Source: Cystobacter ferrugineus (GTDB lineage Bacteria > Myxococcota > Myxococcia > Myxococcales > Myxococcaceae). Taken from it: a stretch of DNA of 56,883 bases. Both the position numbers and the translations under genes were made by a program. The notes beneath the pieces were generated by a model. That model was not told the DNA's origin, did not search any database, and saw only the letters and a program-made list of their open reading frames with translations. Where the stretch lies: the NCBI RefSeq assembly GCF_001887355.1, contig NZ_MPIN01000016.1, forward strand, positions 152,099 through 208,981, written 5' to 3'. Shown here piece by piece: positions 9,221 through 26,368 of this stretch (positions are counted from its first letter, which is position 1; each line of letters begins with the position of its first letter).

Positions 9221-11005
9221 ATGGCCAAGGAAGTGACTGTCGCGGAGGCGGTGGAGCGATTGTCGGGCGCGGATGCACGCATTGGCTTCTCATTCGTGAA
9301 CAGGAGCGGCAACACCGAGCAGACCCGGCTCATCACATTTCCAGATCTGGCTGAGCAGACCGCGGCCCGTGCCGGCGCGCTGCAAGCAATGGGGCTGAAG
9401 CAGGGCGAACGGATTGCCATCATCCTCCCGGAGAATGACGAGTTCATCCTCACATTCCTGGGCGCCATCCGCGCGGGAATCATCCCTGTACCCATCTATC
9501 CGATGCATGGGCTCGGCCAGTTGGATGGTTACCTCGAGAACGTGCGGCACATCGTCAGGCGCAGTGGCGCGGCGGCGGTGGTGACGAACGCGAAGATCAA
9601 GCTCCTGCTCGGTACGGTGCAGAGCCAGTGCGAGAGCGTGCGCAACATCATCTCCACCGAGTCGCTCGCGGACGCCGCCGCACCCATACAGCCCCGGCAG
9701 GTGAAGCTGGACGACGTGGCCTTCCTCCAGTTCACCAGTGGCTCCACGTCCAGCCCGAAGGGGGTCGTCGTCACCCACCGGAACCTGGCGGCCAACATCC
9801 GGTGCATCATGGAGGAGGGCTTCCGGGTGACGCCCGAGGACGTGGGGGTCTCCTGGCTTCCCCTCTTCCACGACATGGGGCTCATCGGCTTCTTGCTGGC
9901 CCCGCTCTTCTACCAACGGCCCGTGGCGTTCATCCCGCCGCTGACCTTCCTGCAGCGACCGGTGACGTGGCTGGAGTCTCTCAGCAAATATCGCGCGACC
10001 ATCTCCTGTGCGCCCAACTTCGCCTTCGCCCTGGCCGTCAAGCGCATTTCGGAGGCGCAACGGCAAGGGTTGGATCTGTCCGCCTGGCGCATCGCCGGGT
10101 GTGGCGGCGAACCCATCCGCCCGGAAATCCTGCGGCGCTTCGCCTCGGCCTTCGCACCCCAGGGCTTTCGCGCCGAGGCCCTGATGTCCATGTATGGCAT
10201 GGCCGAGTCCTCGCTGGCCATCGCCCTGGGGAGGCCAGGCGGGGGGCTGCTGTCGACGCCCGTGGACCATCCCCGCATGAGCGAGGAGCGCGTTGCCCTG
10301 CCGCCCACGCAGCCGGAGCGTGCGTTGGACATCGTCGTGTGTGGCAAGCCGTTCCCCGGCCACGAGTTGGCCATTTTCGACGTGGCGGATGAGACCAGCG
10401 CGTTCCCCCTTCCCGCTGGGCATATCGGGGAGATCCGCATCGCCGGTCCCAGCGTCATGAAGGAGTATTGGGGTGACCCGGAGGCGACGGCCCAGGTGTT
10501 CGCCGGTAGGTATCTGCGCACGGGCGATCTCGGCTTCATCCTCGACGGCGAGCTCCACGTCTGCGGCCGGCTCAAGGAGATGATCATCCTCAACGGCCGC
10601 AACTACTTCCCGCAGGACATCGAGCACGTGGCCACCACGGTGCCGGGAGTGCGCAAGGGCAACCTCATCGCCTTCGGCACGCATGTGGCCTCTGGCACGG
10701 GCGATGGTTCGGAGCGGATCGTTCTGGCGGTGGAGATCGCCGACCCGGCCTCGTTCGACCCCATGGCTGTCGTCCGGACGGTACAGACCGCGTTGGGCAT
10801 CGCGCTCCACGAAGTGGTGGTGCTCCAGCCCGGGCAGCTCCCCAAGACGTCCAGCGGCAAGCTGCAGCGCACCAAGACACGAGCGCTGTACGAGAGGGGC
10901 GAGTTGCATGACCAGCGGAGCGCGCGAGAGACGAGCGTCACCGACACCCTCAAGCAGGTCGTCATCAGCCAGACCCACTACCTGAAGGCCGTCCTCTTCA
11001 AATAA
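9221..11005 (+). CDS. Fatty acyl-AMP ligase (FAAL) 1
   Basis: Adenylates a free fatty acid with ATP and passes the acyl group to an acyl carrier protein. The 594 residues cover a complete ANL enzyme: P-loop TSGSTSSPKG at about residue 172, SWLPLFHDMGLIG, the FAAL-type FLQRPVTWLESLSKYRAT then SCAPNFAFAL, MYGMAESSLA, and LRTGDLGF near the C-terminal hinge, with the final catalytic lysine region PKTSSGKLQR. ATG 9221 is preferred over GTG 9200 because GGGGG lies 8 bases before it. The downstream ACP gene begins 39 bases later, so this heads an operon that runs at least to the ferredoxin. Bases 9037-9220 upstream are comparatively AT-rich and probably carry the promoter. Confidence 0.93.
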   Translation: MAKEVTVAEAVERLSGADARIGFSFVNRSGNTEQTRLITFPDLAEQTAARAGALQAMGLKQGERIAIILPENDEFILTFLGAIRAGIIPVPIYPMHGLGQLDGYLENVRHIVRRSGAAAVVTNAKIKLLLGTVQSQCESVRNIISTESLADAAAPIQPRQVKLDDVAFLQFTSGSTSSPKGVVVTHRNLAANIRCIMEEGFRVTPEDVGVSWLPLFHDMGLIGFLLAPLFYQRPVAFIPPLTFLQRPVTWLESLSKYRATISCAPNFAFALAVKRISEAQRQGLDLSAWRIAGCGGEPIRPEILRRFASAFAPQGFRAEALMSMYGMAESSLAIALGRPGGGLLSTPVDHPRMSEERVALPPTQPERALDIVVCGKPFPGHELAIFDVADETSAFPLPAGHIGEIRIAGPSVMKEYWGDPEATAQVFAGRYLRTGDLGFILDGELHVCGRLKEMIILNGRNYFPQDIEHVATTVPGVRKGNLIAFGTHVASGTGDGSERIVLAVEIADPASFDPMAVVRTVQTALGIALHEVVVLQPGQLPKTSSGKLQRTKTRALYERGELHDQRSARETSVTDTLKQVVISQTHYLKAVLFK

Positions 11006-11044
11006 CCCAGCCACCTCCTCGAGCCCGTCGGAGTGCATGACACC

Positions 11045-11317
11045 ATGAGCCGTCCGGAAATCCGTGCCCTCATCCACCGCTGCCTTTCCGAGGTAGAGCC
11101 CCAACTGAAGAACCTGGACCTCACCGAGGAGACGGCGCTACCCGAGCTGGGGCTCGACTCGCTCAAGCTCATCGAGGTGGGTGTCCGGCTCGAGGATGCA
11201 TTCGGCGACTCCGTGCGTTTTGACAACTGGCTGGATCAGGAGCGCACCAAACAGGGCAACAGCGCCTTCAAGCTGGCCTCGCTCATTTCCTTCATCGAAG
11301 AGCGGAGGGCCGCGTGA
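11045..11317 (+). CDS. Acyl carrier protein 1
   Basis: A 90-residue carrier protein. The phosphopantetheine site is LGLDSLKLIEV, with the serine near residue 38, followed by the usual acidic helix. It is the expected partner of FAAL 1 directly upstream. ATG 11045 is used; GTG 11033 in the same frame would add four residues. Its stop overlaps the GTG of the next gene (GTGA), which indicates coupled translation. Confidence 0.9.
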   Translation: MSRPEIRALIHRCLSEVEPQLKNLDLTEETALPELGLDSLKLIEVGVRLEDAFGDSVRFDNWLDQERTKQGNSAFKLASLISFIEERRAA

Positions 11318-12333
11318 CGGCGAGCCCCTTGCCCTACCGCGTCCGTGTCGTCAGCTCGTACATCTATGAAAAGGAGGACAGCGCTCCCTATTCCACCATG
11401 GGCCGGCAGAACCGCTGGGTGGTGGGGTTCGTCTCGGCCATCACCCGGTTGAAATCCGGCCTGCGCGACTTTGATCTCCAGTTCCATCGCATTCCCCCCA
11501 CCCGTGAGGAACTCATCCAGTTGCTCGCCCGCTACCGGGAGGAGGGCGTTGGCCTGCTCATCATTCCGGGCACGGACTCGGTGGTGCGCGTCGCGGAGGT
11601 GAACCGGGACATCCCCGTGGTGTATTTCGGGGCCCATCCGGAGAACAACGGGATGGAGCTGCTCGACCATCCGAACATCACCGGGGTGCGGCTCAACCTG
11701 CCGCTCATCTGGAGCTATGAGAATTTCTCCCTGCTCAAGAGCGTGGTGCCGGAACTGGAGCGGGTCTACTTCCCGCTCAACCTGAGTTCCGAGTTCGCGT
11801 TCCCCAACGTGAAGAGGAACTACGCGCTCTCCCGGGCCAAGAAGGAGGGATTCTGGATCACCCCCCCCTCCAGCCATGTCGGCTACCGAAGCGTGGCCTT
11901 CCTGGCGGAGCGGCTGGGGGTGAGCTTCCACGAGGGTCCGTATGCCACGCTCGAGGAATTGCAGGCCGGGTTGGACACGATGAAGGCGGAGCGCAGCGCC
12001 CTGATCGGCTTCAACGACACGGTGCTCAGTGGCAAGGCGGTGCAGGCGCTCCTCGCGTACTCCCGCGCCCGGCGTGTCCCGCTCTTCTGGGTCAACAACG
12101 CGGCCATCATCAAGCAGGCGGGCGTGGCGGACTTCTCCAGCGACTTCGAGGCCGTGGGCCGCGTGGTGGGCCGGATGTGTCTGTCCATCCTGCGCGACGG
12201 CAAGCCCGTCAGCGAGGTGCCCTTCGAGAATGACCCGGGGCAGAAGCTCATCCTCAACCTCCCGGGCTGCCACGAGCTCGGCCTCACGGTGGCGCCCGAG
12301 GTGCGGGCTCGCTTCGACGAGGTCGCGTCATGA
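11314..12333 (+). CDS. ABC_sub_bind-type periplasmic-binding-fold protein without signal peptide
   Basis: A 339-residue protein with the two-lobed fold of ABC_sub_bind/TrpX-like substrate-binding proteins (IIPGTDSVVRVAEVNRDIPVVYFG; later ALIGFNDTVLSGKAVQALL and VPLFWVNNAAIIKQAGV). Family members are normally exported. Here no signal peptide or lipobox precedes the fold, and the gene overlaps the ACP gene by 4 bases and the thioesterase gene by 4 bases. It therefore looks like a cytosolic member recruited to acyl-ACP chemistry, perhaps binding a substrate or cofactor. No transporter permease or ATPase is nearby. Family call fairly secure; role unknown. Confidence 0.75.
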   Translation: MTASPLPYRVRVVSSYIYEKEDSAPYSTMGRQNRWVVGFVSAITRLKSGLRDFDLQFHRIPPTREELIQLLARYREEGVGLLIIPGTDSVVRVAEVNRDIPVVYFGAHPENNGMELLDHPNITGVRLNLPLIWSYENFSLLKSVVPELERVYFPLNLSSEFAFPNVKRNYALSRAKKEGFWITPPSSHVGYRSVAFLAERLGVSFHEGPYATLEELQAGLDTMKAERSALIGFNDTVLSGKAVQALLAYSRARRVPLFWVNNAAIIKQAGVADFSSDFEAVGRVVGRMCLSILRDGKPVSEVPFENDPGQKLILNLPGCHELGLTVAPEVRARFDEVAS

Positions 12334-12836
12334 GCAGCCCGGTGCAGGTGCTCGGCTACCACGAGACGCCCGGCCGCGTCCGCTTCGGGGAGGTGGACCG
12401 GTATGGGTATCTCTGGCATGGCCACGCGCTCGCCTACTTCGAGGCGGCGAGGGCCGACCTGGCGCGCCGCACCCAACTGAGTGTGACGGACCTGCTGGAG
12501 TTCAACCTGGCGGTCCCCATGGTGGACCTGTGGATCGAGTACAAGAAGCCGGCGCATGAGGACGATGAGCTCGTCACCCAGATTTCCCTGCTGCGCAAGC
12601 CTCTGCGCAACCCCTTCATCCAGTTCGCCTACCGCATCGTGAAGATGCGGGACGGCCAGGAAGTCCTGCGCGGGCGGACGCGTCAGCTCATCATGCCCCA
12701 GAGCGGGTCGCTCCTGACGCGTTTGCCAGACGAGGTCCAGCGCCGGCTGGAGTCGGTCTGGAGCTACCTCGAGACTCGCCCCCGGTGGCAGGAGGAGCAG
12801 ATCCTCGGCCTCCTGGGCGGCCCCCCGTGTTCGTGA
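12330..12836 (+). CDS. Acyl-CoA/acyl-ACP thioesterase, 4HBT hotdog family
   Basis: A single hotdog domain of 168 residues in the YbgC/FadM style: RVRFGEVDRYGYLWHGHALAYF is the catalytic-loop region, where the aspartate of the usual xxDxxGHxxN pattern is kept as VDRYGYLWHG. It probably hydrolyses the acyl thioester made by the adjacent FAAL/ACP pair, releasing the product. ATG 12330 overlaps the previous stop (ATGA). The C-terminus has an extra amphipathic helix. Confidence 0.85.
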   Translation: MSSPVQVLGYHETPGRVRFGEVDRYGYLWHGHALAYFEAARADLARRTQLSVTDLLEFNLAVPMVDLWIEYKKPAHEDDELVTQISLLRKPLRNPFIQFAYRIVKMRDGQEVLRGRTRQLIMPQSGSLLTRLPDEVQRRLESVWSYLETRPRWQEEQILGLLGGPPCS

Positions 12837-12852
12837 AGAAAGGATCCCTCCC

Positions 12853-13935
12853 GTGGATCAGGTCGACCCGGTAGACAAGCTGTTGAGGAGGCAGATCAAG
12901 CTTTTCGAGCACGCCCATCGCACGCCCCTCGAGCTCAAGGGGCTCGGCCTGACGATGAAGCAGGAGGGCATCGACAAGAGCAAGCTGTACTGCAACCCGG
13001 ACTTCCTGCTCCTGCCGCTGCGCGAGTGCCCCCACCTCTCCAAGCTCCGGCCCGAGCAACTCTCCGTGCTGACCGCGTATTACTTCGCGCGGGCCTACTC
13101 GGAAATCGCCACCTCGGAGTCGGTGGCGCTGCGCTACAACATGGAGGCGTCCGCGGCCGTCTTCCCTCTGTACTCGGACAACTACATGGTCCTCTTCCAC
13201 GAGACGGCGGAGGAGTTCGACCACATCATCACCTTCCGCAACGTGTGTCAGGCGCTCCTCGGGCGCGGGGATGTCATTGGCGGAGACTTCTTCCCCCATC
13301 TCAAGGCCGTCCCGGTCATGCTCGAGCGGTACCGGGGGAAGCTGTGCAACAACGGCTTTGGCTCCATGTACCTGCTGATGCGCTACATCCTCAACCTGGC
13401 GCTCAAGCAGCTCGAGGGCTTCATGACGGCCGGCCTCGACGAGAAGGTCGCCTCGCCGCTGGCGCTGCGGATCGTCGCGGGCCATGCGGAGGACGAGGCC
13501 CGGCACCTCACCACCTCTCTCGAATTGGGGCTCGGCCTCTTCCGGCGCGCCACGCCCAGGTCGCGCGAAATCATCTCAGGGGCGATGCGCATCACGATGT
13601 ATTCGATGATCGACAAGCGCTTCTCCGGGGATGCGGCGGCCACCTGGAACTTCGAGACGGGCCTGGGCGTGCTCCAGCGGGCGCTCCAGCACCCCGAATT
13701 CGCTGACTTCCCGCTCCGTGCCGAGGCGCTGCGCGACCTGTGGGCATCCGAGGGCATCGCGATTCCCGCTGGCGCCGAGTTCGAGCGCTCGCGGCGGTGG
13801 ATCGCGGGGCAGTTGAACCGCCTGGCCGAGAGCATGGAGTTGGCCTTGACGCCACAGGGCGAGGCTTTCGAGCGGTATCTGGCCTACGCGCGGGGCACCA
13901 CTCCATTCCCTGAGGATACGGCGAGGAAGGCATGA
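12853..13935 (+). CDS. AurF-like non-haem diiron oxygenase
   Basis: A 360-residue all-helical protein of the p-aminobenzoate N-oxygenase AurF/CmlI family (PF11583). The metal ligands are visible as carboxylate/histidine helices: SEIATSE, HETAEEFDHI (ExxxxxH spacing of the family) and HAEDEARHL (DExxH). Known members oxidise aryl-amines to nitro or azoxy groups, but related enzymes hydroxylate or desaturate. Because it sits between a thioesterase and a ferredoxin in a FAAL/ACP operon, the substrate is more likely an acyl-ACP or a released amine. GTG 12853 follows AAAGGA. Its stop overlaps the ferredoxin start. Confidence 0.85.
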   Translation: MDQVDPVDKLLRRQIKLFEHAHRTPLELKGLGLTMKQEGIDKSKLYCNPDFLLLPLRECPHLSKLRPEQLSVLTAYYFARAYSEIATSESVALRYNMEASAAVFPLYSDNYMVLFHETAEEFDHIITFRNVCQALLGRGDVIGGDFFPHLKAVPVMLERYRGKLCNNGFGSMYLLMRYILNLALKQLEGFMTAGLDEKVASPLALRIVAGHAEDEARHLTTSLELGLGLFRRATPRSREIISGAMRITMYSMIDKRFSGDAAATWNFETGLGVLQRALQHPEFADFPLRAEALRDLWASEGIAIPAGAEFERSRRWIAGQLNRLAESMELALTPQGEAFERYLAYARGTTPFPEDTARKA

Positions 13936-14234
13936 GTTCCGAGCGGAGTGGGGAGCAAGTCGAGCTTCAGGTCGGGGACGAGGTATTGAAGGTCAGGTCC
14001 GGGGAGAGGCTCATCGACATCTGCGAGCATCACCTGACGTGCCTCACGTTCAGTTGCCGCTCGGCCTCCTGTGGCACGTGCGCCATTGTTGTCGAGCAGG
14101 GCATGGAGAACCTCTCTCCCATGGACGGGCTGGAGGCCATTGTCGTCGAGGAAGTGTCCGAAGGACGTCCCAACGTGCGCCTGGCGTGCCAGGTGCGGGT
14201 CCTTGGCTCCGCGTGCGTACGCCCTCTGTCGTAG
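13932..14234 (+). CDS. [2Fe-2S] ferredoxin, plant type
   Basis: A 100-residue ferredoxin with the cluster ligands in CRSASCGTC (C-x4-C-x2-C) and the distal cysteine in LACQV. It presumably feeds electrons to the diiron oxygenase, whose stop codon its ATG overlaps (ATGA). No ferredoxin reductase is encoded in the window, so a housekeeping reductase must serve. Last gene of the tightly coupled run. Confidence 0.9.
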   Translation: MSSERSGEQVELQVGDEVLKVRSGERLIDICEHHLTCLTFSCRSASCGTCAIVVEQGMENLSPMDGLEAIVVEEVSEGRPNVRLACQVRVLGSACVRPLS

Positions 14235-14286: not shown

Positions 14287-15666
14287 ATGCCCAAGCCAGA
14301 ATCGCTGGTCCTCTTCCTCTTCGTCCTGTTGCTCCTCGCCCACCTGCTCGGCGCCCTCTGCGTGCGGTTGAGGCAACCGCGGGTGGTGGGAGAAATACTG
14401 GCGGGCGTGCTCGCGGGACCCGTGCTCCTGGGGCACCTGGAATTCTTTCCACGGCCTGGAACCCAGCACCTGCCCGTCCTGGACTTCCTTTATTCCTTCG
14501 GGCTGTTGATGTTGATGTTCCTCTCGGGGGCGGGCATCCACTCGCTGTTTCATCCGGATGATCGGCGGCAGATTGCCTGGCTGACCTCGTTCGGAACGGT
14601 ACTCCCCTTCATCATCGCCACCGCGCTGGGCATGAGCCTGCCCCTGGACGCGTTCCTGGGCCCGGCGGGGCACCCCGTTGCCCTCCTGCTCATCATCGGC
14701 ATCTCCGTCTCCATCACCTCCATCCCCGTCATCTCGCGCATCTTCCAGGATCTCCAGGTGATGCATACGCGTTTCGCGCGGCTCGTGTTGGGCGTGGCGG
14801 TGGTGGAGGACATCGCGCTCTGGGCGGGGCTCGCCGGGGCCCTGTCCCTGGCACGCGCGAGCACGCTGCCCTGGAGCGACATCGCGCGGCACATCGGCGT
14901 GACCTTGATCTACATGGCCCTGGGCCTGTTCCTGGTGCCCCGGGTCCTTCAGGGGTTGCGCGCGGCGCGTTGGAATCCGCTCGCGCGCATGTCGCCCGTG
15001 ACGCATGTGGTCCTGCTGCTCCTGGTCTACGCCGCGGTGGCGGACCTCCTCGACATCAACAAGGTCTTCGCCGGTTTCCTCGCCGGCCTGGCGGCCTCGC
15101 GGAGTTCCTCGTTCACCCCGGAGACGCTGGACTCCATCGCGGGGCTCTCCAACGCGCTCTTCATCCCGCTCTACTTCGCGTTGGTCGGCTACAAGCTGTC
15201 GCTCATCAATGCGCTCTCGCCCGGGATGCTCTGTGCTTTCCTGGTTGTCGCCTGCATCATCAAACTGGCCGCGGTGGGACTGGGGGCCCGGCTCGCCGGT
15301 TTCCCTCCCTTGGATGCCCTCAACCTCGCCGTGGCGACGAACGCGCGCGGAGGGCCAGGCATCGCGGTGGCCAGTGTGGCGTTCGATGCCGGCATCATCA
15401 GCCCCGCCTTCTACACCACGCTGGTCGCCGTGGCGGTGTTGACCTCTCAGGCGGCGGGGGCATGGCTGGATGCCGTGCTGCGGCGCGGGCTCCCACTGCT
15501 CAGCGGCATGCCCGGGTCCGAGGTCGCGGCTGCGAGCGCCCCTTCCTCCGCTCGGAAGAATGTTCCTTCCGGACAGGAAGGGACCACGGCACGAATCCCT
15601 GGTGTTGCCCGGGATTTCGTCGCGCCCACCCTCATGCAAGGAGACACCAAAGGACACCAGGGCTAG
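14287..15666 (+). CDS. Cation:proton antiporter, Kef/CPA2 type membrane protein
   Basis: About 459 residues with some 12 hydrophobic segments. Typical CPA2 motifs are LRQPRVVGEILAGVLAGPVLLG near the N-terminus, SITSIPVISRIF and NARGGPGIAVASVAF. There is no C-terminal TrkA-N/RCK domain, so it is a short form. ATG 14287 follows CAGGAG. It is 52 bases behind the ferredoxin and probably part of the same transcript; it may offset cytoplasmic pH change or export a charged product, which is inference. Confidence 0.88.
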   Translation: MPKPESLVLFLFVLLLLAHLLGALCVRLRQPRVVGEILAGVLAGPVLLGHLEFFPRPGTQHLPVLDFLYSFGLLMLMFLSGAGIHSLFHPDDRRQIAWLTSFGTVLPFIIATALGMSLPLDAFLGPAGHPVALLLIIGISVSITSIPVISRIFQDLQVMHTRFARLVLGVAVVEDIALWAGLAGALSLARASTLPWSDIARHIGVTLIYMALGLFLVPRVLQGLRAARWNPLARMSPVTHVVLLLLVYAAVADLLDINKVFAGFLAGLAASRSSSFTPETLDSIAGLSNALFIPLYFALVGYKLSLINALSPGMLCAFLVVACIIKLAAVGLGARLAGFPPLDALNLAVATNARGGPGIAVASVAFDAGIISPAFYTTLVAVAVLTSQAAGAWLDAVLRRGLPLLSGMPGSEVAAASAPSSARKNVPSGQEGTTARIPGVARDFVAPTLMQGDTKGHQG

Positions 15667-15746: not shown

Positions 15747-16772
15747 ATGCTGATTGATTACCGGCGCATTCAATCGGGTGGGGCGCTCAGGAAGCTGGAA
15801 CAGAAGAACTTCCTCGAGAACAAGGCGAAGATGCAATGGTGGTACGTGGACGTCGTGATGAGCGATGGGAGCGTACTGCTCGTGGCGTTCGTGCCGAAGA
15901 AGTGGTGGCCGGACGAGGTCCAGGCGAACCTCGATGACGCGCTGGTGTTCTTGGCGATGGTGGATGGCAAGGAGCGCAAGTCTCGCTCGGTGACCAGGAC
16001 GCTGGATTCGTCGCGCATGCGTATCTCGCAAGACGGGCTGCGCCTCGAGATTCCCGGCGTGACCATCGTTCGCGAGGACACCCACCCGGCGACGTATCGA
16101 TTCGCCTTCGATCTGGACGAGGTGAAGGGTCAATTGGAAGTCCGCGCGGTGGCGCGCCCGTTCTCGGCGTTCCCGACGGGTTCACTGCCCGGGCTGGGCC
16201 GCGCCGCGCTGCTCGGTGGGGCGCTGAGCGGCGAGGCATTCAGCTATGTCTCGCAGGTGCCGCGCGGCAAGGCCAGCGGCGAGCTGTCGTGGGGCGCGGA
16301 GCGAATCGCCATCGACGGTCACGCCTATCACGAGCAGGGACGTTTCGATGACGCGCCGGAACGGCTGAGCAGGAAGGGCTGGTTCTGGTGTCATTTCCTC
16401 CATCCCGAATGGAACGTGTTCGGGTCGCCGGGCGTGTTCCTGTACGTGCAAAGGGAGGAGGAGAAGCCGGTGTTCAGCGGCTTCAACCTGCTCGACAAGA
16501 GCATGGGTTTCAAGAACCGCACGACGGCGGGAGAGGGGCCGCACCACAAGATCTACAGCGGCGGCGAGATGCGCTTCGCATACGACGGCCTCCAGCTGTC
16601 GGTGAAGGCGGACCCGAAACGGAACGCGCCGCTCGTGTCGTTCCCGTCGGCGACGACGAGGCAGATCTACCACACGCTGGTGACCGACGCGGAGTTGACC
16701 GTCGAGACCAAGGGCACGACCCGGCGCATCCCAGGGCAGATGATCCTCGAATCGTGCTGGCTGGGGCTTTGA
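15747..16772 (+). CDS. AttH/CrtC-like lipocalin-fold protein
   Basis: A 341-residue soluble protein resembling the AttH/CrtC (hydroxyneurosporene synthase-like) double-lipocalin family: WWYVDVVMSDGSVLLVAF near the N-terminus, the mid-protein IDGHAYHEQGRF that corresponds to the GxxYxDH signature, and GWFWCHFLH. Family members are hydratases or isomerases of lipophilic substrates, and some fungal relatives act as Diels-Alderases. No signal peptide. It follows the antiporter by 80 bases and ends at a strong hairpin. The reaction is unknown; family call moderate. Confidence 0.6.
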   Translation: MLIDYRRIQSGGALRKLEQKNFLENKAKMQWWYVDVVMSDGSVLLVAFVPKKWWPDEVQANLDDALVFLAMVDGKERKSRSVTRTLDSSRMRISQDGLRLEIPGVTIVREDTHPATYRFAFDLDEVKGQLEVRAVARPFSAFPTGSLPGLGRAALLGGALSGEAFSYVSQVPRGKASGELSWGAERIAIDGHAYHEQGRFDDAPERLSRKGWFWCHFLHPEWNVFGSPGVFLYVQREEEKPVFSGFNLLDKSMGFKNRTTAGEGPHHKIYSGGEMRFAYDGLQLSVKADPKRNAPLVSFPSATTRQIYHTLVTDAELTVETKGTTRRIPGQMILESCWLGL

Positions 16773-18059: not shown

Positions 18060-19889
18060 ATGACTATGCAGCCCCTCCTAGCTTCCGAGCCCTCGGTCGA
18101 GGATCAACTCTACCGGATCCTGAACAGCACTCGCCCCGATTACGCCTGGAAGCTGCGCAGGTATTTCGAGGAGCATTGGGATCCGTCACTGTCATTCCAG
18201 AACGAGGATCTCGACGGGTTTCGTGAGAAGACGCACTTCATGGTGCGCAAGCTTCTCCAGGCGGGCCTGCTGTCTCTGTCCGAGCTGAACCAGAAGCCAT
18301 CCGAGTACATGAAGTTCTGCGAGCATTCGTGCTGGATCGACGGAAGCGTCGCGGCCACGTTGTTCGGGCACTTCCTCATCTTCGGCGGAAGCCTGGTCTT
18401 CCTCGGCACCGAGCGGCATCGCTCCCTGGTCGACGTCGCCGATGACTTCAGGCTCCCCGGTTGCTTCTGTATGACCGAGGTGGGGCATGGCAGCAATCTC
18501 GCGGGTCTCGGTACCACCGCGACGTACGACGCCGAGCGCGGCGAGTTCATCATCAACACGCCGAGCTGGCGCGACGCGAAGTGGGCGATCGCGCTGCTCG
18601 CGTGGAACGCGCGGGTCGTCACGGTCATGGCGCAGCTCTACATGCCCGACGGGGAATGCAAGGGCATCCACTCGTTCCTGGTGCCGGTGCGGGACGAAGA
18701 GGGACGCCCGCTGCCGGGCGTGAAGATCTGCGACGTCGATTGGCTGATTGGCTTGAACGGCGTCGGAATCGGCGGAGCGATGTTCGAGCAGGTGCGCATC
18801 CCTCGCGAGAACCTGCTCAATCGCTTCGCGGACGTGACGGCGGAAGGGAAGTATGTGACGTCGTTCGAGTCGCCGGGCGAGCTCTTCCGTGCGCAGATCT
18901 CACCGCTGATGATCGAGCGGCTCGTCCCCTTCGCGGTGGCGGGCGTGAAGATTGCTCTCGCCGTGGCGGCGCGCTACGGCAAGGAGCGGCGTCAGTTCGG
19001 ACCGCGCGGGGGCCCGGAACGCCCCATCATCGAATACAGCAGCCACAAGCGGCGCTTGATGCCCGGCGTCGCCGAGTCGTACGCGATCGCGCTCATGCTC
19101 GAGCGCCTGCACCTCGAGGCGGACCGCACGATGCCCGAGCCGCTGCCAACGCCGCTCCAGCCCCTCTGCGCGTCGTTCAAGGCCTATTCGTATGAGACGG
19201 CGACACGGGTCATCCAGAACGCGCGCGAGTGCTGTGGTGTGCACTCGTTCCGGCATGTCAACAAGATCGCCCGGGCGCAGCTCGACATGCACGGCTTCGC
19301 GCACGCGGCCGGTGACAACGTGGTGTTGTTTCAGTACGCGGGGCGGATCCTGCTCGAGGACTTCGCCGGGGGCAAAGGCCCGTTCAAGGAAGCCGCCGAG
19401 CCCGATGCCTCCGCCTGCTCGGCCACCTGCGCGAAGCACCAGGCGTTGTTCGCGGCGCGGTTCGACCAGCTTCTCGACTACACGCGCGGCGAGTACATGA
19501 AGCACATCGGGGAGGGAATGAGTCGTGGCGACGCATGGAACGAGATCCTGACGTTCGCGGTCGAACTGGGCCGTGCGTACGCGATTCGCGAGACGCACAA
19601 GCAGTTCCTGCGTGTCCTCGACTCCTGCGTGCCGGGCCCGGCGAAGGACATCCTGCTGGAGCTGTGCGAGTTGTACGGGTGGTCCACGGTGTCGGCCCAC
19701 CTTGGCTGGTACCGGGATCACTCCGACGGATCGCTCGATCTCTCCGGGTTGTCCGTCGAGCGCTCGGTGCTCGAGTATTCACAGCGGCTGGCACCGAAGC
19801 TCGATCTGCTGGTGGATTCCTTCGGGATCCCGGAGGTCCTGCTCCCGGCGGCGGATCTGGTGGCGGACCTGCCGGGCAAGTTCAGCTAG
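18060..19889 (+). CDS. Acyl-CoA oxidase/dehydrogenase-like flavoprotein
   Basis: A 609-residue protein with the layout of peroxisomal-type acyl-CoA oxidases: N-terminal helical domain, flavin-binding middle domain with FCMTEVGHGSNLAGLGTTA and TPSWRDAKWAI, a helical domain with YGKERRQFG, and an extra C-terminal helical domain. It would introduce a 2,3 double bond into an acyl thioester, passing electrons to oxygen or to an electron carrier. Its 3' end overlaps the convergent desaturase by 8 bases. ATG 18060 is used; a second ATG lies two codons later. Confidence 0.87.
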   Translation: MTMQPLLASEPSVEDQLYRILNSTRPDYAWKLRRYFEEHWDPSLSFQNEDLDGFREKTHFMVRKLLQAGLLSLSELNQKPSEYMKFCEHSCWIDGSVAATLFGHFLIFGGSLVFLGTERHRSLVDVADDFRLPGCFCMTEVGHGSNLAGLGTTATYDAERGEFIINTPSWRDAKWAIALLAWNARVVTVMAQLYMPDGECKGIHSFLVPVRDEEGRPLPGVKICDVDWLIGLNGVGIGGAMFEQVRIPRENLLNRFADVTAEGKYVTSFESPGELFRAQISPLMIERLVPFAVAGVKIALAVAARYGKERRQFGPRGGPERPIIEYSSHKRRLMPGVAESYAIALMLERLHLEADRTMPEPLPTPLQPLCASFKAYSYETATRVIQNARECCGVHSFRHVNKIARAQLDMHGFAHAAGDNVVLFQYAGRILLEDFAGGKGPFKEAAEPDASACSATCAKHQALFAARFDQLLDYTRGEYMKHIGEGMSRGDAWNEILTFAVELGRAYAIRETHKQFLRVLDSCVPGPAKDILLELCELYGWSTVSAHLGWYRDHSDGSLDLSGLSVERSVLEYSQRLAPKLDLLVDSFGIPEVLLPAADLVADLPGKFS

Positions 19890-20700
19890 CCTGGTCGCGA
19901 ATCTGGTCGAGGGCTCGCCGCTGGTACTCCCCGAACTCCTGACGCGACACGCCCAGGAGTTTGAGCAGCGGCATCCAGACCTTCAGGAAGAAGCCCCAGC
20001 GGTTGAAGCTGTTGTGCATGCGCAGCGTCTCGACACGTCGCTCCGAGTCGGGGAGGAGATCGATCGCCGGCATGCGGAAGCCGACGGACACCAGGGCGAG
20101 ATCCTCCAGCGTCTCGTGGCGATGCTCCTCGAGTTCGAGCTTGAGGACGGCGCGGTAGAACTGCTGGTGGGCCGCCTCGTCGCGCGCGATGAGGCGGTAG
20201 ATGGTCGCGAGCACCTCGTCCTTGCCGGCCTGGGCGTCCTCGAGCTGGCGTGCGTAGGCGAGGAGCGTGCTCGCCTCCTGGATGGCGCCGTAGCAGGTCA
20301 TCCGCCGGGGCGTGTCCCAGGGAAGGCGCCAGGGCCGGGCCGCGATGGCATCCTCGAGGCCGCGCAGTTGCTCCTCGGTGCGCAGTCCGGTCTTGAGCAG
20401 ATACATCCGCAACGCGAGGCCGTGCTTGGATTCCTCGTAGCCCCAGTTCGCCTGGAACCACGCCCGGCCGAAGTTCTCGCGCACGAGATTGACGCCCTGG
20501 CCGAGGTAGTCCGGGAGGTAGAGCTCGACTCCGCAGAACGTCTCGACGTTCATCGCGCGCCCCTCGTCGTAGACCGACGGATCCAGGCGATCCCACGGGA
20601 TGTCCTCATACACACTCCAGCGCCGCTTCTTCTCGGCGGTCTCGAAGAAGCTCATGTACATTCTGTAGACTTCTTCACGAAACCGGGCTGATCCGCTCAT
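19882..20700 (-). CDS. Acyl-ACP desaturase (soluble diiron, FA_desaturase_2)
   Basis: A stearoyl-ACP-desaturase-like enzyme of 272 residues. The two EExxH-type ligand helices are visible as EESKHG (about residue 90) and DEAAHQ (about residue 176). It inserts a cis double bond in an ACP-bound acyl chain. ATG 20700 is chosen because AAGGGGG lies six bases upstream; GTG 20721 would add seven residues. It is divergent from FAAL 2, with about 130 bases of shared control region, so the pair is probably co-regulated. Confidence 0.88.
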   Translation of the reverse strand: MSGSARFREEVYRMYMSFFETAEKKRRWSVYEDIPWDRLDPSVYDEGRAMNVETFCGVELYLPDYLGQGVNLVRENFGRAWFQANWGYEESKHGLALRMYLLKTGLRTEEQLRGLEDAIAARPWRLPWDTPRRMTCYGAIQEASTLLAYARQLEDAQAGKDEVLATIYRLIARDEAAHQQFYRAVLKLELEEHRHETLEDLALVSVGFRMPAIDLLPDSERRVETLRMHNSFNRWGFFLKVWMPLLKLLGVSRQEFGEYQRRALDQIRDQAS

Positions 20701-20829
20701 GAATGCCCCCTTTGTGTTCACACAGAGTACTTATTGGTGTTGCGCGCCACCAGCCATTAGAACTAGAATTCCTTTCATAATCCGACGATGAACCTTCGGT
20801 CCGAGGGGGAAGATCCACCCGGGGGGATA

Positions 20830-22659
20830 ATGAAACAAAGTCATGGCCTCCTCGCGGAGGCGTGGGGCGTGTACGAAAGTCGCACATTGCATGAAGCCTT
20901 GCTCAAGTTGGACGAGGCTCCGGCAACGCGCGGATTCACGTTCCAGAACGAGAGGGGCGAGGAGCGTTTCGTCGCGTTTCCCGCACTTCACGCCGAGAGC
21001 CGCCGACGGGGCGCGGCGTTGCAGGCATTGGGGATGAAGAAGGGAGATCGCCTGGGAATGGTGATCATCGATCCCGAGGACTTCATCGCGACGTTCCTGG
21101 GTGCGTTACGCATCGGTGTCGTCCCCGTTCCGCTCTATCCGCCCATGCACCTCGGCGGCCTCGACAGCTATACGCGGCAGGCCGCGGCGATCCTCTCATC
21201 ATCAGGTTCGTCCGTGCTCGTGGTGAGCGCCGGGCTGGCCAGCATCTTCTGGGCATTCGTCGATCGTGTGCCGAGCCTCGCGCGCGTGGTCGAGACGTCG
21301 TCCCTGACGGGAGATGCGTCGGCGCTGCGCGAGGTGTTGGTGACTCCGGAGGATCTGGTGTTTCTGCAGTACACGTCGGGCTCGACGGGGACGCCGAAAG
21401 GCGTGAAGGCGACCAGCGGCACGCTCATCGCCAACATTCACGGCTTCATGGGCGCATCGCTTTCCATGCAGCCGGGGGTCGACACCGGGGTGAGCTGGCT
21501 GCCGCTGCAGCACGACATGGGATTGATTGGCTTCGTGCTTGGGCCGATCTACTGGCAGATCTCCGTGACGTTCATCCCAACGCTGCGCTTCCTCAAGCGT
21601 CCGGAGTGCTGGATGGAGACGATGCACCGCCAGAAGGCGACCGTCTCCTTTGCTCCGAACTTCGCGTACGGGTGGCTGACACGCGTCGCCAAGGAGGAGG
21701 AGCTCGGGCGGTGGTCGTTGGGGCACGTTCGCGCCCTCGGTGTCGGCGCGGAGCCGCTGCATTACGACACCCTGAAGCGCTTCACCGACAAGTTCGCGCG
21801 CACCGGCCTGCGCCCGGACGTGCTCCTTCCGGCGTATGGCCTCGCGGAATCGATGCTGGCGATCAGCATGAAGACGTCGACCGAGCCGATGAAGGTGCGG
21901 ACGCTCGATGCCGGGCGCTTCCGCGACGAGGGCGTGTCCGTGCCCGCCAACGGTGGAGAGGTCGAGCGCCACATTGGTTGTGGCAAGGTCATTCCCGGAC
22001 ACGAGCTTCGCGTCGTCGATGAGAAGGGAAGGCCGTGTCCGGATGGCGTGCGCGGCGAGATCCTGTTCCGCGGTCCGTCGGTGATGGAGGGGTATCAGGA
22101 AGGCGGAGCCGAGGAGATCATCGACGCCGACGGGTGGCTCCGGACCGGCGATCTCGGCTATCTCGTGGACGGTGAGCTCTACGTGGTGGGGCGCGCGAAG
22201 GATCTCATCATCATCCGCGGCCGCAACATCAGCCCGCAGACGATTGAGTGGGAGGTCAACAAGCTTCCGGGGGTGCGTGCTGGCACGACCATCGCGGTGG
22301 CCGTTCGCGTCGACGACAGCGAGGGCGTGGTGGTCATGTTGGAGACGCGCATCGCCGCCGTGAAGGCGCTCAAGGCCGAGGTCGCCGCGACGGTGAAGCG
22401 CGTGATCGGCGTTCCTCCGGCGGACGTGCTCTGTCTGCCGCCCGGGACGATTCCCAAGACTTCGTCGGGCAAGCTCCAGCGCGGCAAGGCCCGTCGGCAG
22501 TATCTGGAAGGCAAGCTCGGGCGGGAAGGGTCGCGCACCGCCGGAGCGATGGGGGCGCGTCTACGCCTGGGGCTGCAGGTGGCCCGGTCCTGGTGGGCGC
22601 GCGCCAGGTTTTTGCTTCGGTCCAGGAACACGAACGAGGAAGAACACAGACATGAGTGA
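20830..22659 (+). CDS. Fatty acyl-AMP ligase (FAAL) 2
   Basis: A second full-length FAAL of about 609 residues. Motifs in order: VPVPLYPPMHLGGLDSY, P-loop TSGSTGTPKG, SWLPLQHDMGLIGFV, FLKRPECWMETMHRQKAT then SFAPNFAYGWL, AYGLAESMLA, LRTGDLGYL and PKTSSGKLQRGK. A basic hydrophobic tail (LQVARSWWARARFLL) follows and may touch the membrane. It differs clearly from FAAL 1, so the cluster likely activates two acyl chains. ATG 20830 sits behind a GGGGGG; ATG 20788 has no such site. It overlaps the ACP gene by 8 bases. Confidence 0.92.
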   Translation: MKQSHGLLAEAWGVYESRTLHEALLKLDEAPATRGFTFQNERGEERFVAFPALHAESRRRGAALQALGMKKGDRLGMVIIDPEDFIATFLGALRIGVVPVPLYPPMHLGGLDSYTRQAAAILSSSGSSVLVVSAGLASIFWAFVDRVPSLARVVETSSLTGDASALREVLVTPEDLVFLQYTSGSTGTPKGVKATSGTLIANIHGFMGASLSMQPGVDTGVSWLPLQHDMGLIGFVLGPIYWQISVTFIPTLRFLKRPECWMETMHRQKATVSFAPNFAYGWLTRVAKEEELGRWSLGHVRALGVGAEPLHYDTLKRFTDKFARTGLRPDVLLPAYGLAESMLAISMKTSTEPMKVRTLDAGRFRDEGVSVPANGGEVERHIGCGKVIPGHELRVVDEKGRPCPDGVRGEILFRGPSVMEGYQEGGAEEIIDADGWLRTGDLGYLVDGELYVVGRAKDLIIIRGRNISPQTIEWEVNKLPGVRAGTTIAVAVRVDDSEGVVVMLETRIAAVKALKAEVAATVKRVIGVPPADVLCLPPGTIPKTSSGKLQRGKARRQYLEGKLGREGSRTAGAMGARLRLGLQVARSWWARARFLLRSRNTNEEEHRHE

Positions 22660-22912
22660 GCGAGAGATCATCGACCTGGTGAAGGCCGCGCTGAGCAAGG
22701 TGCGGCCGGAATTCGCCGCCGAGTTCGCGTCGGTGGGCATTGACACGCGGTTCGACAGCCTCCGCATCGACTCGGTCGACACCCTGCGGATGATCACGTT
22801 CCTCGAGGACAAGCTCGGGTTCGTGTTCCAGGACGAGGACCTGGGCCGCATCGAGACGGTGACGGACCTGGCCACGCTCATCCGGAAGAACGGGCATGAG
22901 CCCCGCTGCTGA
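22652..22912 (+). CDS. Acyl carrier protein 2
   Basis: An 86-residue carrier protein with the modification site FDSLRIDSVDTLRMI, where the serine in RIDSVD should carry phosphopantetheine. It is the natural partner of FAAL 2, with which it overlaps. Its 3' end overlaps the 3' end of the convergent dehalogenase-like gene by 35 bases. Confidence 0.9.
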   Translation: MSEREIIDLVKAALSKVRPEFAAEFASVGIDTRFDSLRIDSVDTLRMITFLEDKLGFVFQDEDLGRIETVTDLATLIRKNGHEPRC

Positions 22913-23786
22913 CCAGTGAAGTGATGGCGTGGGCGATGTCGCCGGGCACCTCCTCCTGGAGGAAGTGTCCGGCCTGGGTGCGCTTGACCTCCGCGTGCGG
23001 CAGGAGGCGTTGGAGCCATCCGATGACGCGTCCGAGCACCGGATCCCGGTCACCCCAGACAATGCGCATGGGGCCCTTGAACGACTCGGCGACTTCCTGG
23101 CAGCGCCGCAGCGGCGCGATGGAGCGATGCTCCATGGAGTCCGGCACCATGCGTGCGAGGGCGAGGGGCGCGGTGCGATCCTGGAGGCGCCGGAGTGGCC
23201 AGCGATAGGCGCGGGCGACCTCGCCGCGCATGGTGCTTCGGTCTCCCTGCGCGGCCCAGAGTGCGAGCTGCGGGAATTGCAGGCCGCGGAACAGCACGTC
23301 GCTGATCACGGGAAGCTGGCTCGAACGATGGAACAGCGTCGGACGGAACCCGGGGCGCGGCGGCCCGAGGACGGTGTTCAGGATGACCATGCCCGACACG
23401 CGCTCGAGCCGTTCGGCGAGCGCGAGCATGCCGATGGGCCCACCCCAGTCCTGGCCGACGAAGATCATGTCCTCGAGGGCGAGCGCGTCGATCAGTCCGC
23501 CGATCCAGGCGGCATGGTTCTCGAGGGTGTGCACGCCCAGGTCGCGCGGCTTGTCGGAGAGGCCAAGGCCGACGAGGTCGGGCACGATGCAGCGCACCGG
23601 CTGGCCGCGGAGGGCGGCCATGACCTTGCGGTAGAGGAAGCCCCAGGTGGGATTGCCGTGGAGCATGAAGACAGGCTGTCCCTGGCCAAATTCCATGACG
23701 TGGATGGAATGACCCGCGACGGGGATCTGGCGGTGCTCGACGCCGTCGGGCAACTGTCGAAGAATCCACTCAGGCAGCTCGGTCAT
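22878..23786 (-). CDS. Alpha/beta hydrolase, haloalkane dehalogenase type
   Basis: A 302-residue enzyme of the haloalkane dehalogenase/OleB-like branch. The oxyanion strand is HGNPTWGFLYR, the nucleophile elbow is VGQDWGGP with aspartate in place of serine, and the catalytic histidine is in AGHFLQEE. OleB relatives decarboxylate beta-lactones made by an AMP-ligase-type partner; an AMP-ligase fusion lies directly upstream here with an ATGA overlap, but no OleA thiolase or OleD reductase is seen. So the substrate is open. Confidence 0.85.
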   Translation of the reverse strand: MTELPEWILRQLPDGVEHRQIPVAGHSIHVMEFGQGQPVFMLHGNPTWGFLYRKVMAALRGQPVRCIVPDLVGLGLSDKPRDLGVHTLENHAAWIGGLIDALALEDMIFVGQDWGGPIGMLALAERLERVSGMVILNTVLGPPRPGFRPTLFHRSSQLPVISDVLFRGLQFPQLALWAAQGDRSTMRGEVARAYRWPLRRLQDRTAPLALARMVPDSMEHRSIAPLRRCQEVAESFKGPMRIVWGDRDPVLGRVIGWLQRLLPHAEVKRTQAGHFLQEEVPGDIAHAITSLVSSGAHARSSG

Positions 23787-26368
23787 GATGAGGCTCCTTG
23801 TAGCAGTGAGGCGATTCTCGCGCGCAGCGTGCTGGTGCGCGCGTGCACGTCGGCGGAGGGGTCGTCGAGGATCGCGGCCCCGGCGCGGATGGTGACGCGG
23901 TGAAGGCCGCCAAAGAACCTACCACGCGGCAGGACGCGGTGCGTTCCGTCGATGGCCACGGGGACGATGGGCGCCCGCGCGCGCTGCGCGATGACCGCCG
24001 CACCGTGGCGGAATGGCAAGAGGGTGCCGTCCCAGGAGCGCGTCCCTTCGGGGAACACGACCAGCACCGCGCCGCGCTCGAGCCGCGCCACGCTCTCCGC
24101 GATGGCCGTGGGGAGGTTGCGGCTGGCGTCGATTGGCATCACGCCAATCCGGCGCACCAGCGGCAGCAGGAGCCCGCTGAAGTATTTTGGCTTTCCCACC
24201 ATGCAGGTTCGGCGGAGGACCGACCAGGGAAGGACGGACAGGATCAAGAGTATGTCGAGGAGCGATTGATGATTCGGGCAGATCAGCGCCGCGCCCGGCG
24301 GACGCAGATGGTCGGCGCCCTTGACGCGCATGCCCAGGAACAGCCACGCCATGCCACGGACGCCGCGCAGGAGCGCGAACGTGAGCAGGGTCAGCACCTG
24401 ACTGCGCGGCGGCGGGCGGGAGGAGGCGGGTGCAGCCGGCGCGGGCGCGCCGCTGGCCGTGGCCTCGACGAGTTCGCGCACGGACTGCACCGTTGCCAGC
24501 ACCTCGCCCGCGGCATTGACGTTCAGCTCCGACAACAACGACAGGCGCGCCAGTGAATCGAGGCCGAGGTCGATGTCGAGATGCAAATCCGGATGGAGTT
24601 CCGCGCGTGGGCGGCCCACGCGTGCGGCAATGAGCTCGAGAGCGCGCGCGTGCGCGGGGACTTCGGCCCACGCGCGGTCGGCGTCACGCCACACCGGCTT
24701 CAACCCGACGCGCTCGGCGGCCTGGGACGCTTTGACCCATTCCTGGAGCGCGGCGCGTTTGAGCTTGCGCGTGGTGGTGCGTGGCAAGGGCTCGCGGGTG
24801 ATGGTGACGCCGGCGACGCGCTTGTACGACGGCAGTGCGGCGGAGAGGTTCGCGACCTCCTCGTGGATCTCCTGCTCGACGTTGCCGGTGCCGGCGGCGC
24901 GTATGGCCTCGAGGTCGGGGACGACGACGAGATGGAGCTGCGGGTCGCTCCCCGCGCCGCCGGGCGCGAGCGTGACGCCGACCTCGGCGATGAGCTTCGA
25001 GCGCGCGAAGTGCGTCTCGAGTTCGCTCGGTTGGATTTTCTTGCCGCTGGGAAGGACGAGGGTGTCTCCGGCGCGACCAAGGAGATAGAGGTAGCCGTTC
25101 CCGTCGAGGTACCCGAGGTCGCCGGTGTGGAACCAACTGTTTTCGATCCTCGCCTCGCCCGGGCGATTGTAATAGCCCGGCATCACCATCGCACCGCGGA
25201 CGAGCACCTCGCCGGGCGCTCGCGGGCTCCCTCGACCGTCCGGGACGTCGATGCGGAACTCGGCGCCGGGCACCGCGCGGCCGGCCGTGCCGATGATCGT
25301 CTCGCCCGGCCGGCCCATCGCGATCGCACCAGTGGTCTCGGTGAGGCCGTAGACCTGCAGGACGTCGATGCCCATGGCGTAGAACGTGCGCGCCGCTTCA
25401 GGATCCAGGGCGGCGCCGCCGGAGATCATCGCGCGTATCTTCGGTCCAAACGCGGCGTGGACCTTCTTGAACACGACCTTTCCCGCGTTGAGGCCGAGGG
25501 CGCGGGCGCGGCGGTTCCAGCGCAACAGGCGCGGAAACATGCGTCGCAACCGGGGCGACTCATCGATCTGCGCGCGCATGCGGCGCAGGAACAGATGATA
25601 GAATTGCGGAACGCAGAAGAAGATCGTGATGCCACCGTCGCGCAGCGCGCCGGTGATGCGAGTGACTTCGATCTCGGGGAGGAGCACCACCGTCGCGCCG
25701 ACGGTGAGCGGAGCGAGCATGCCCCCAATCTGCGCGAGGATGTGGAAGAAGGGGAGGACCGATAGGACCACGTCGCGGTGGTCGGCGCGCAACGCGAGGA
25801 TGATGCCGTCCACCGCCGTGAGCAAATTCGTGTGAGTCAGCATGACGCCTTTTGGCTCGGACGTCGTGCCTGACGTGTAGAGCAGCCCGGCCAGCTCGTC
25901 GCCGCCGCCGATGAGCTCCTCGGGTGCGGCGGCGTTGCTGGAAAACACGCCATTCGCTTGCTCATTCAGGCTGAACACCTGCTCGAGCTGCGTCCACGCG
26001 GCGCTCTGTGCTTCGGCCTTCGCGTCGACGATGGCGAAGCGGGCGCCGGCGTCCTTCATGAGCGCGCCCAGCGTCGCCGGGGACAACTGTGGATCCAGCG
26101 TCACCGCGACGGCGCCGAGGCTGACGATGGCGTACCAGGCCGCGCACCAATCCGGATGGTTGGCGCCAATCAGCGCGCAGCGCTCACCGTGTTTCAGGCC
26201 GTGCTCGGTCAGGAAGGCCGCGGCGCGCGCGACGCGCTCGGCGAACGCGCCGTACGTCACGACGGGGCGCGAGTGCGGGCCCTGGATGACGAACGCCGGT
26301 TGAGCCGGGCTCCCCCTCGCCCGCCTGCGCATCTCCGCCGCGATGTGGTTTGTCGATCGCCCGGTCAT
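23783..26368 (-). CDS. AMP-ligase / acyl carrier / PlsC acyltransferase fusion
   Basis: An 861-residue three-domain protein. Residues 1-550 form an acyl-activating enzyme (YTSGTTSEPKG, VYGLTETTGA, WFHTGDLGY, LPRTTTRKLKR). Around residue 600 is a carrier-type motif DIDLGLDSLARLSLL. Residues about 690-855 are a 1-acyl-glycerol-3-phosphate acyltransferase (NHQSLLD; FPEGTRSW). It would activate a fatty acid, hold it on its own carrier domain, and transfer it to a glycerolipid or other alcohol. E. coli Aas has the reverse order (PlsC first) and no carrier domain. It heads a two-gene operon with the dehalogenase-like hydrolase. Confidence 0.87.
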   Translation of the reverse strand: MTGRSTNHIAAEMRRRARGSPAQPAFVIQGPHSRPVVTYGAFAERVARAAAFLTEHGLKHGERCALIGANHPDWCAAWYAIVSLGAVAVTLDPQLSPATLGALMKDAGARFAIVDAKAEAQSAAWTQLEQVFSLNEQANGVFSSNAAAPEELIGGGDELAGLLYTSGTTSEPKGVMLTHTNLLTAVDGIILALRADHRDVVLSVLPFFHILAQIGGMLAPLTVGATVVLLPEIEVTRITGALRDGGITIFFCVPQFYHLFLRRMRAQIDESPRLRRMFPRLLRWNRRARALGLNAGKVVFKKVHAAFGPKIRAMISGGAALDPEAARTFYAMGIDVLQVYGLTETTGAIAMGRPGETIIGTAGRAVPGAEFRIDVPDGRGSPRAPGEVLVRGAMVMPGYYNRPGEARIENSWFHTGDLGYLDGNGYLYLLGRAGDTLVLPSGKKIQPSELETHFARSKLIAEVGVTLAPGGAGSDPQLHLVVVPDLEAIRAAGTGNVEQEIHEEVANLSAALPSYKRVAGVTITREPLPRTTTRKLKRAALQEWVKASQAAERVGLKPVWRDADRAWAEVPAHARALELIAARVGRPRAELHPDLHLDIDLGLDSLARLSLLSELNVNAAGEVLATVQSVRELVEATASGAPAPAAPASSRPPPRSQVLTLLTFALLRGVRGMAWLFLGMRVKGADHLRPPGAALICPNHQSLLDILLILSVLPWSVLRRTCMVGKPKYFSGLLLPLVRRIGVMPIDASRNLPTAIAESVARLERGAVLVVFPEGTRSWDGTLLPFRHGAAVIAQRARAPIVPVAIDGTHRVLPRGRFFGGLHRVTIRAGAAILDDPSADVHARTSTLRARIASLLQGASS

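Follow-up and report, generated by a model that had tools for sequence, protein, structure and literature searches.

The enzymes CylC and NocO have the AurF fold and are halogenases of acyl chains that fatty acyl-AMP ligases (FAALs) and acyl carrier proteins (ACPs) load (PMC8406957, PMC12101540). When supplied with ferredoxin and reductase, NocO chlorinates a dodecanoyl group bound to the ACP NocM; it has nine essential residues and the motifs QExxH and HxxDExxH (PMC12101540). The Gln of the first motif is required for activity and is conserved in 241 further homologues inspected, and AurF bears Asp at this position (PMC12101540). According to the same text, a ligand set of three His and four carboxylates is largely N-oxygenase-specific among ferritin-like diiron enzymes. 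The noc cluster contains two FAALs with their ACPs (PMC5333925), and FAAL clusters without a classical modular NRPS are already known, for instance the afc cluster (PMC12186527). Dimetal halogenases that act on acyl-ACP have been firmly established only recently (PMC12101540, 2025).

We analyzed a window of 56,883 nucleotides (G+C 66%) from the genome of Cystobacter ferrugineus (12.05 Mb, 42 contigs). Domains were searched for with Pfam and NCBIfam in the gene-like ORFs from 4271 to 29980, in some of them with one library only. A block of 15 genes extends from FAAL1 to a fusion of AMP ligase, ACP and PlsC (9221-26368):

9221..11005, + strand: FAAL1, fatty acyl-AMP ligase (PF00501, 230 bits)
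11045..11317 (alternative start 11033), + strand: ACP1, acyl carrier protein with LGLDSL (PF00550, 27.7 bits)
11314..12333, + strand: SBP, ABC_sub_bind-type protein (PF04392, 50.3 bits)
12330..12836, + strand: TE, 4HBT/YbgC-type hot-dog thioesterase (PF13279, 4HBT_2, 41.5 bits)
12853..13935, + strand: AurF-like diiron enzyme (PF11583, 34.5 bits, cut-off 29.6)
13932..14234, + strand: Fdx, [2Fe-2S] ferredoxin (PF00111, Fer2, 39.9 bits)
14287..15666, + strand: CPA2-type cation/proton antiporter (PF00999, 146 bits; TIGR00932 under cut-off; in 5 genomes)
15747..16772, + strand: distant CrtC/Diels-Alderase-type lipocalin protein, 341 residues (no Pfam match of its own)
16847..17734, - strand: alpha/beta hydrolase (PF12146, 40.3 bits)
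18060..19889, + strand: ACOX, acyl-CoA-oxidase-like flavoprotein (PF22924, PF01756; PDB matches to acyl-CoA oxidases)
19882..20700 (longer frame to 20721), - strand: SAD, soluble acyl-ACP desaturase (PF03405, 55.3 bits, cut-off 22.7)
20788..22659, + strand: FAAL2, fatty acyl-AMP ligase (PF00501, 197 bits)
22652..22912, + strand: ACP2, acyl carrier protein (PF00550, 24.9 bits)
22878..23786, - strand: haloalkane-dehalogenase-like alpha/beta hydrolase (PF00561, 72.1 bits; PDB matches to dehalogenases)
23783..26368, - strand: AMP-ligase/ACP/PlsC fusion (PF00501, 267 bits; PF01553, 82.4 bits; PF00550, 26.2 bits)

The initial annotation had proposed this region as a candidate cluster for fatty-acid biosynthesis that contains two diiron enzymes and two pairs of FAAL and ACP, and the genes that it named are all present, with Pfam scores above the curated cut-offs. 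Its gene list was correct but incomplete, as the block also contains the antiporter, the CrtC-like protein, two hydrolases and the AMP-ligase/ACP/PlsC fusion. It had also stated that there is no PKS or NRPS, and indeed we found no KS, condensation or other PKS/NRPS domain in the gene-like ORFs scanned (4271-29980). The description of the left genes as coupled by 4-base overlaps holds for three of the five junctions (ACP1/SBP, SBP/TE and AurF/Fdx), whereas FAAL1 and ACP1 are separated by 27 or 39 bases, depending on the start codon, and TE and the AurF-like gene by 16. Both FAALs are nearer to the FAAL model than to acyl-CoA ligase models: the best NCBIfam match of each is the fatty acyl-AMP ligase PRK09192 (473 bits for FAAL1 and 465 bits for FAAL2, both under the cut-off of 600). 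The top PDB match of FAAL1 is the fatty acyl-adenylate ligase 3pbk, and TE reaches 50.6 bits against TIGR00051, under the cut-off of 68.7. Fdx is the presumed electron donor of the AurF-like enzyme. SBP is apparently cytosolic, as a hydropathy scan showed no strongly hydrophobic stretch at its N-terminus and its frame offers no start codon ahead of the one that shares 4 bases with the end of ACP1.

The first motif of the AurF-like enzyme reads E120-E121-F-D-H124 (EExxH), with E120 at the position of the halogenase Gln, and the second reads H211-A-E-D-E-A-R-H218 (HxxDExxH). Relative to the published description of NocO, eight of the nine essential residues are kept and the Gln is replaced by Glu; the residues at the nine positions are E89, E120, E121, H124, E188, H211, D214, E215 and H218. 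The proposed metal ligands, as read from the sequence, are E89, E121, H124, E188, H211, E215 and H218, of which E89 and E188 were assigned from motif order and are invariant in a five-sequence alignment with distant relatives. Because the halogenase Gln is a Glu, the enzyme is probably not a canonical halogenase, and we rejected that function as the first choice while keeping it as a rival. The Glu and the ligand set would rather speak for oxygenation. We note that Glu at position 120 also occurs in three distant AurF-like proteins (24-26% identity), so by itself it seems to be no mark of ACP-linked enzymes; no other block genes were found beside these three. An AurF paralogue in the window's own genome (L001) carries DExxH. 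The 15-20 kb surrounding the two own-genome paralogues contain no match above 35 bits to other block genes, and the same applies to the distant AurF genes of G007, G159, G107 and G108. In the PDB, the single AurF-like sequence had no match, and a profile of five AurF sequences retrieved neither an AurF nor a CmlI entry but only weak matches, of which two are R2-like or ribonucleotide-reductase chains. The predicted structure is poor (pLDDT 46). To our knowledge, no enzyme of this AurF-like subfamily has been assayed so far.

The NocL/NocM/NocO set and the sets of CylC, with their AurF-fold halogenases, are the closest working precedent for the left operon. FAAL, ACP and AurF-fold enzyme adjoin in both, and NocO was assayed with ferredoxin. 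The window differs from them in having EExxH instead of QExxH and in adding a ferredoxin, an ABC_sub_bind protein and a thioesterase to the operon, and its scanned ORFs contain no PKS domain. With these halogenases of acyl-ACP in view (PMC8406957, PMC12101540), the statement in the initial annotation that AurF-like enzymes make nitro or azoxy groups was too narrow. The p-aminobenzoate N-oxygenase AurF shares with the window enzyme the Pfam match, HxxDExxH and apparently the seven ligands; the window enzyme differs in its Glu in place of Asp135, its modest score (34.5 bits) and its ACP-linked setting, and no arylamine pathway was seen. The Burkholderia afc cluster (AFC-BC11) shares FAAL, carrier protein, acyl-ACP desaturase-like and dehydrogenase-like genes with the block and likewise has no classical modular NRPS, but it also has an A-domain protein, a citrate synthase and a decarboxylase, none of which were found in the ORFs scanned here; the terms "AurF" and "diiron" are absent from the text of the afc paper (PMC12186527). 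Four FAAL-bearing cyanobacterial plasmid loci yielded no CylC-type sequence: three annotations name no diiron enzyme, and the fourth locus comes without annotation.

The desaturases of the Jam and polyyne pathways are of the membrane type (PF00487). The window desaturase matches only PF03405, the soluble family, which agrees with the earlier statement that the cluster is unlike the JamABC type. The likeness lies in the grouping of FAAL, ACP and desaturase (JamA, PMC11837247). Trios of FAAL, ACP and soluble desaturase, with homologues of FAAL2, ACP2 and SAD (desaturase 43-53% identical), occur in three other genomes (G074, G008 and G021). There they precede a PKS, the protein after the trio being KS-AT-KR-DH-aminotransferase, in contrast to the block, where no PKS domain was found. 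The loci L059, L060 and L061 run from FAAL-ACP-soluble desaturase to KS-AT-KR-DH-aminotransferase, L060 and L061 with an additional CMAS-type methyltransferase, and this recurring locus may make unsaturated or cyclopropanated amino ketones. In G071, about 6 kb separate the desaturase homologue from FAAL and ACP matches; the homologues of G072 and G182 have none within the 20 kb fetched, and a match on a Deinococcus plasmid has no FAAL1, FAAL2 or ACP match beside it.

Of 195 genomes of the phylum that were searched, five, including the window's own, carry the same 15 genes in unchanged order. The other carriers are two genomes of the window's genus (G002 and G003) and two of a second genus (G030 and G010), with protein identities to the window of 78-99%. 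Because gene content and order are the same in these four further genomes, the block is a conserved unit and more than a chance neighbourhood. For each of five markers (the AurF-like enzyme, SBP, the CrtC-like protein, the desaturase and the dehalogenase-like hydrolase), matches with at least 89% identity came from the same five genomes; the AurF-like enzyme was searched in 195 genomes and the other four in 193 each. When all matches with E <= 0.001 are counted, weaker ones included, the AurF-like enzyme is found in 9 of 195 genomes, and SBP, the CrtC-like protein, the desaturase and the dehalogenase-like hydrolase in 29, 8, 36 and 177 of 193, respectively. The AurF-like gene is absent from G001, of the window's genus, and from four genomes of the second genus (G102-G105), and its frames in G030 and G010 stop about ten residues early.

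Pairwise dN/dS against the window (simple Nei-Gojobori) is below 1 for all 15 genes; it lies at 0.33-0.71 for ACP2, which is short, and at 0.04-0.40 for the other 14. Across the block, mean dS amounts to 0.21 for the window against G002 and G003, 0.11 for G002 against G003, 0.16 for G010 against G030, and 0.21-0.23 between genera. For rpoB, the corresponding values are 0.06, 0.05, 0.05 and 0.16-0.17. Because the block is too similar across the genera relative to this one reference gene, the values suggest that the whole block was exchanged between genera.

The core of the left operon also occurs on L028, a 31-kb contig of a Lysobacterales MAG (UBA5700) whose AurF-like protein is 60% identical to that of the window and has the same residue set, with the same Glu at the Gln position. 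It was the one relative retrieved by a contig search with an AurF alignment and two short peptide patterns; the first pattern does not fit L028, and the search may therefore have overlooked others. The core comprises, in order, FAAL (45% identity), ACP (49%), SBP (56%), TE (56%), an ACOX-like protein (31%), the AurF-like protein (60%) and ferredoxin (47%), with four 4-base overlaps (FAAL/ACP, ACP/SBP, SBP/TE and AurF/Fdx). Upstream lie, in order, genes for a Rieske oxygenase, a PF00487 desaturase, a DUF4442 protein and an alpha/beta hydrolase; the first two (915-3031) are of the VanA type and the membrane type, respectively. AurF-like, ferredoxin, FAAL and ABC_sub_bind genes, whose co-occurrence the initial annotation had proposed to check, are thus together in the five genomes and on L028. 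The only counterparts on this contig of FAAL2, ACP2 and the ligase domain of the fusion are its FAAL, its ACP and a further AMP ligase; the 31 kb contain no specific match to the PlsC fusion or to FAAL2/ACP2, and none to the soluble desaturase, the CrtC-like or the dehalogenase-like protein. Apart from the MAG's own proteins, the AurF query found nothing in 369 genomes of its class or 287 of its family, and the SBP query nothing in 299 genomes of its order, each set being a sample of a larger group. Plasmids yielded no AurF-like relatives and only three weak SBP matches (22-25%), and no core relatives were confirmed in viral contigs.

Because the core (on L028) and the desaturase trio (in G074, G008 and G021) also occur apart, they are separable modules, a rare core and a commoner trio, that are joined in the block. 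The initial annotation had named independent conservation of the two halves as evidence against a single cluster: they do exist separately in these genomes, but they are together in five.

The remaining genes of the block were assigned by domain matches and motifs. The CrtC-like protein has a homologue in G018 (L065:9664-10788; 24% identity, E 4e-12) that exceeds the cut-offs for PF24137 (Diels-Alderase) and PF07143 (CrtC). Through this one bridging protein, the window protein is a possible hydratase or cyclase; its predicted structure is poor (pLDDT 34). In all five genomes, ACOX has Ala in place of the Glu before GDN, which we take to be the catalytic Glu of acyl-CoA oxidases and which is present before GDN/GEN in the L028 ACOX-like protein and in two aligned PDB oxidases. 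The Glu of ERLV is present, the motifs being the same in the five genomes, and could presumably serve as base, as in isovaleryl-CoA dehydrogenase. SAD has weak PDB matches to DesA2 (E 5e-4) and plant desaturases. The dehalogenase-like hydrolase scores 162 bits against the NCBIfam haloalkane dehalogenase, under the cut-off of 265; read by eye, it has the motifs HGNPTW and QDWGG, to whose residues we assign the catalytic roles of haloalkane dehalogenases. Such a gene beside an AMP ligase would, we assume, parallel OleB and OleC. We set an Ole-type olefin pathway aside, as nine stretches (5-20 kb) at dehalogenase-like homologues contain no match above 40 bits to the block's AMP ligases. In the fusion, the motifs H(X)4D and FPEGTRS, which we take to be the functional motifs of PlsC acyltransferases, are in place in the translation as read by eye, and the NCBIfam models that it matches include those for acyl-ACP-phospholipid O-acyltransferase, with scores far under the cut-off.

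We propose, with a probability of roughly 45%, that the block is a two-station fatty-acid tailoring cluster that combines C-H oxidation of an ACP1-bound chain, a second, unsaturated chain and a lipid ester; we infer all reactions, their order and the product. FAAL1 would activate a free fatty acid and load it onto ACP1. The AurF-like enzyme, reduced by its dedicated ferredoxin, would then oxidise a C-H bond of the bound chain, by hydroxylation or desaturation and not by canonical chlorination, and the hot-dog thioesterase would free the oxidised chain. FAAL2 would charge ACP2 with a second chain, to be unsaturated by the soluble desaturase and perhaps by the ACOX-like flavoprotein, and the CrtC-like protein may hydrate or cyclise the double bond. 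Finally, the fusion would load the finished acyl group on its own ACP domain and esterify a glycerolipid or other alcohol. A lipid end product is proposed mainly because this last gene unites AMP ligase, ACP and PlsC; it would not be a property of the core, because L028 lacks matches to the PlsC fusion, FAAL2/ACP2 and the soluble desaturase. We counted in favour of the pathway that the block is whole in five genomes, the dN/dS values below 1, the presence of the core on L028, where a membrane-type desaturase and a Rieske oxygenase lie upstream, the lack of aminotransferase, NRPS or amide-forming genes among the ORFs scanned, the NocL/NocM/NocO precedent, the Glu shared by the window and L028, and the PlsC motifs. 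Counted against it were the apparent 3-His/4-carboxylate set, which argues for N-oxidation in view of the description in PMC12101540, the presence of the Glu in three distant AurF-like proteins, an SBP to which the scheme gives no role, and an ACOX-like protein without the usual oxidase Glu.

Other functions can be considered for the AurF-like enzyme. It could be a CylC/NocO-type dimetal-carboxylate halogenase of the ACP1-bound fatty acid, the dehalogenase-like hydrolase later displacing the chlorine. FAAL, ACP and AurF-fold enzyme adjoin as in the noc and columbamide-type clusters (PMC8406957, PMC12101540), eight of the nine NocO residues are present, and a dehalogenase-like gene with HGNPT and QDWGG lies inside the block. 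We nevertheless consider this improbable: the first motif lacks the Gln that is needed and conserved in halogenases (PMC12101540), L028 has the same Glu and no match to the dehalogenase-like protein, and the family of this hydrolase is common (177 of 193 genomes). An N-oxygenase like AurF, with an N-oxidised fatty amine or amide as product and the ABC_sub_bind protein delivering the amine, would fit the apparent presence of all seven AurF-type metal ligands and the Glu that stays acidic at the position of AurF Asp135. Among NCBIfam models, SBP matches TrpX alone, a tryptophan-binding protein; this match, however, reaches 43 bits, far under the cut-off of 390, and no aminotransferase, amide synthase or other amide-forming gene, or NRPS was found in the scanned ORFs of the block or in the ten scanned ORFs of L028. 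An N-oxygenase appears unlikely. Because neither locus shows an amine-supplying gene in the ORFs scanned, we prefer C-H oxidation of the ACP-bound chain over N-oxidation. Among the products that the initial annotation had suggested, a modified lipid gains from the PlsC acyltransferase at the block end, while an N-oxidised amide loses, as no amine- or amide-forming gene was seen in the scanned ORFs of either locus.

One may also suppose that two unrelated loci lie side by side by chance, the left operon and the right genes serving different pathways. The core that stands alone in L028 and the FAAL-ACP-desaturase sets before a PKS in G074, G008 and G021 speak for this. On the other hand, the 15 genes are together and in order in all five genomes with any marker at 89% identity or more, the divergence values suggest exchange of the block between genera, and an ACOX-like gene, which belongs to the right part here, lies inside the L028 core, although the two are only 31% identical. 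We regard such a coincidence as rather implausible.

Going beyond the tailoring pathway, a more speculative and somewhat doubtful reading is that the AurF-like protein of the window and its L028 relative constitute a class of their own, carrier-protein-dependent diiron oxygenases in a fixed FAAL/ACP/ferredoxin/SBP complex, which in myxobacteria would feed a new class of oxidised membrane lipid. As parts of this joint reading, the AurF-like protein would be neither halogenase nor N-oxygenase, and SBP would be a former transport protein, now an enzyme or a substrate-presenting subunit. The apparently cytosolic ABC_sub_bind partner, which two distant bacteria share at 56% identity, could put a transport fold to a new purpose. 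For the question of what decides between chlorination, hydroxylation and N-oxidation among AurF-fold enzymes, a natural Glu-for-Gln enzyme in a FAAL/ACP/ferredoxin operon and its 60% identical relative offer a ready comparison. The block would probably yield a so far undescribed fatty acid or lipid. A literature search, mostly outside subscription journals, found no paper with this gene set in the title or the start of the abstract, and none that joins at least four of FAAL, substrate-binding protein, ferredoxin, acyl-CoA oxidase and thioesterase.

The window's own genome contains elsewhere a second, divergent pair of soluble-desaturase and FAAL-like genes (L066 9554-12040, contig C6; 25% and 33-34% identity). 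In line with the left edge given for the block, the upstream neighbour known from the window stops about 370 bases before FAAL1 in G002. An FAD-binding monooxygenase-like gene (7364-9061, - strand; PF01494, 39 bits) lies between an ELWxxDGT gene and FAAL1 in the window, and we rejected it as a member with only these 370 or so bases between the upstream gene and FAAL1 in G002; it is missing at that spot in G002, and G003 has one 41-residue match there. The ELWxxDGT repeat protein (4271-7348, + strand; 15 matched stretches, TIGR04534, 649 bits) also precedes the block in G002 and G003, but the regions retrieved for G030 and G010 do not contain it. Just past the block, a gene of the TsiV family (type VI immunity; 26815-27822, - strand; PF11876, 142.6 bits) was left out, as the regions retrieved for the four further carriers contain no match to it. 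A TsiV homologue with 44% identity lies about 2 kb from a dehalogenase-like gene in G104 (L104).
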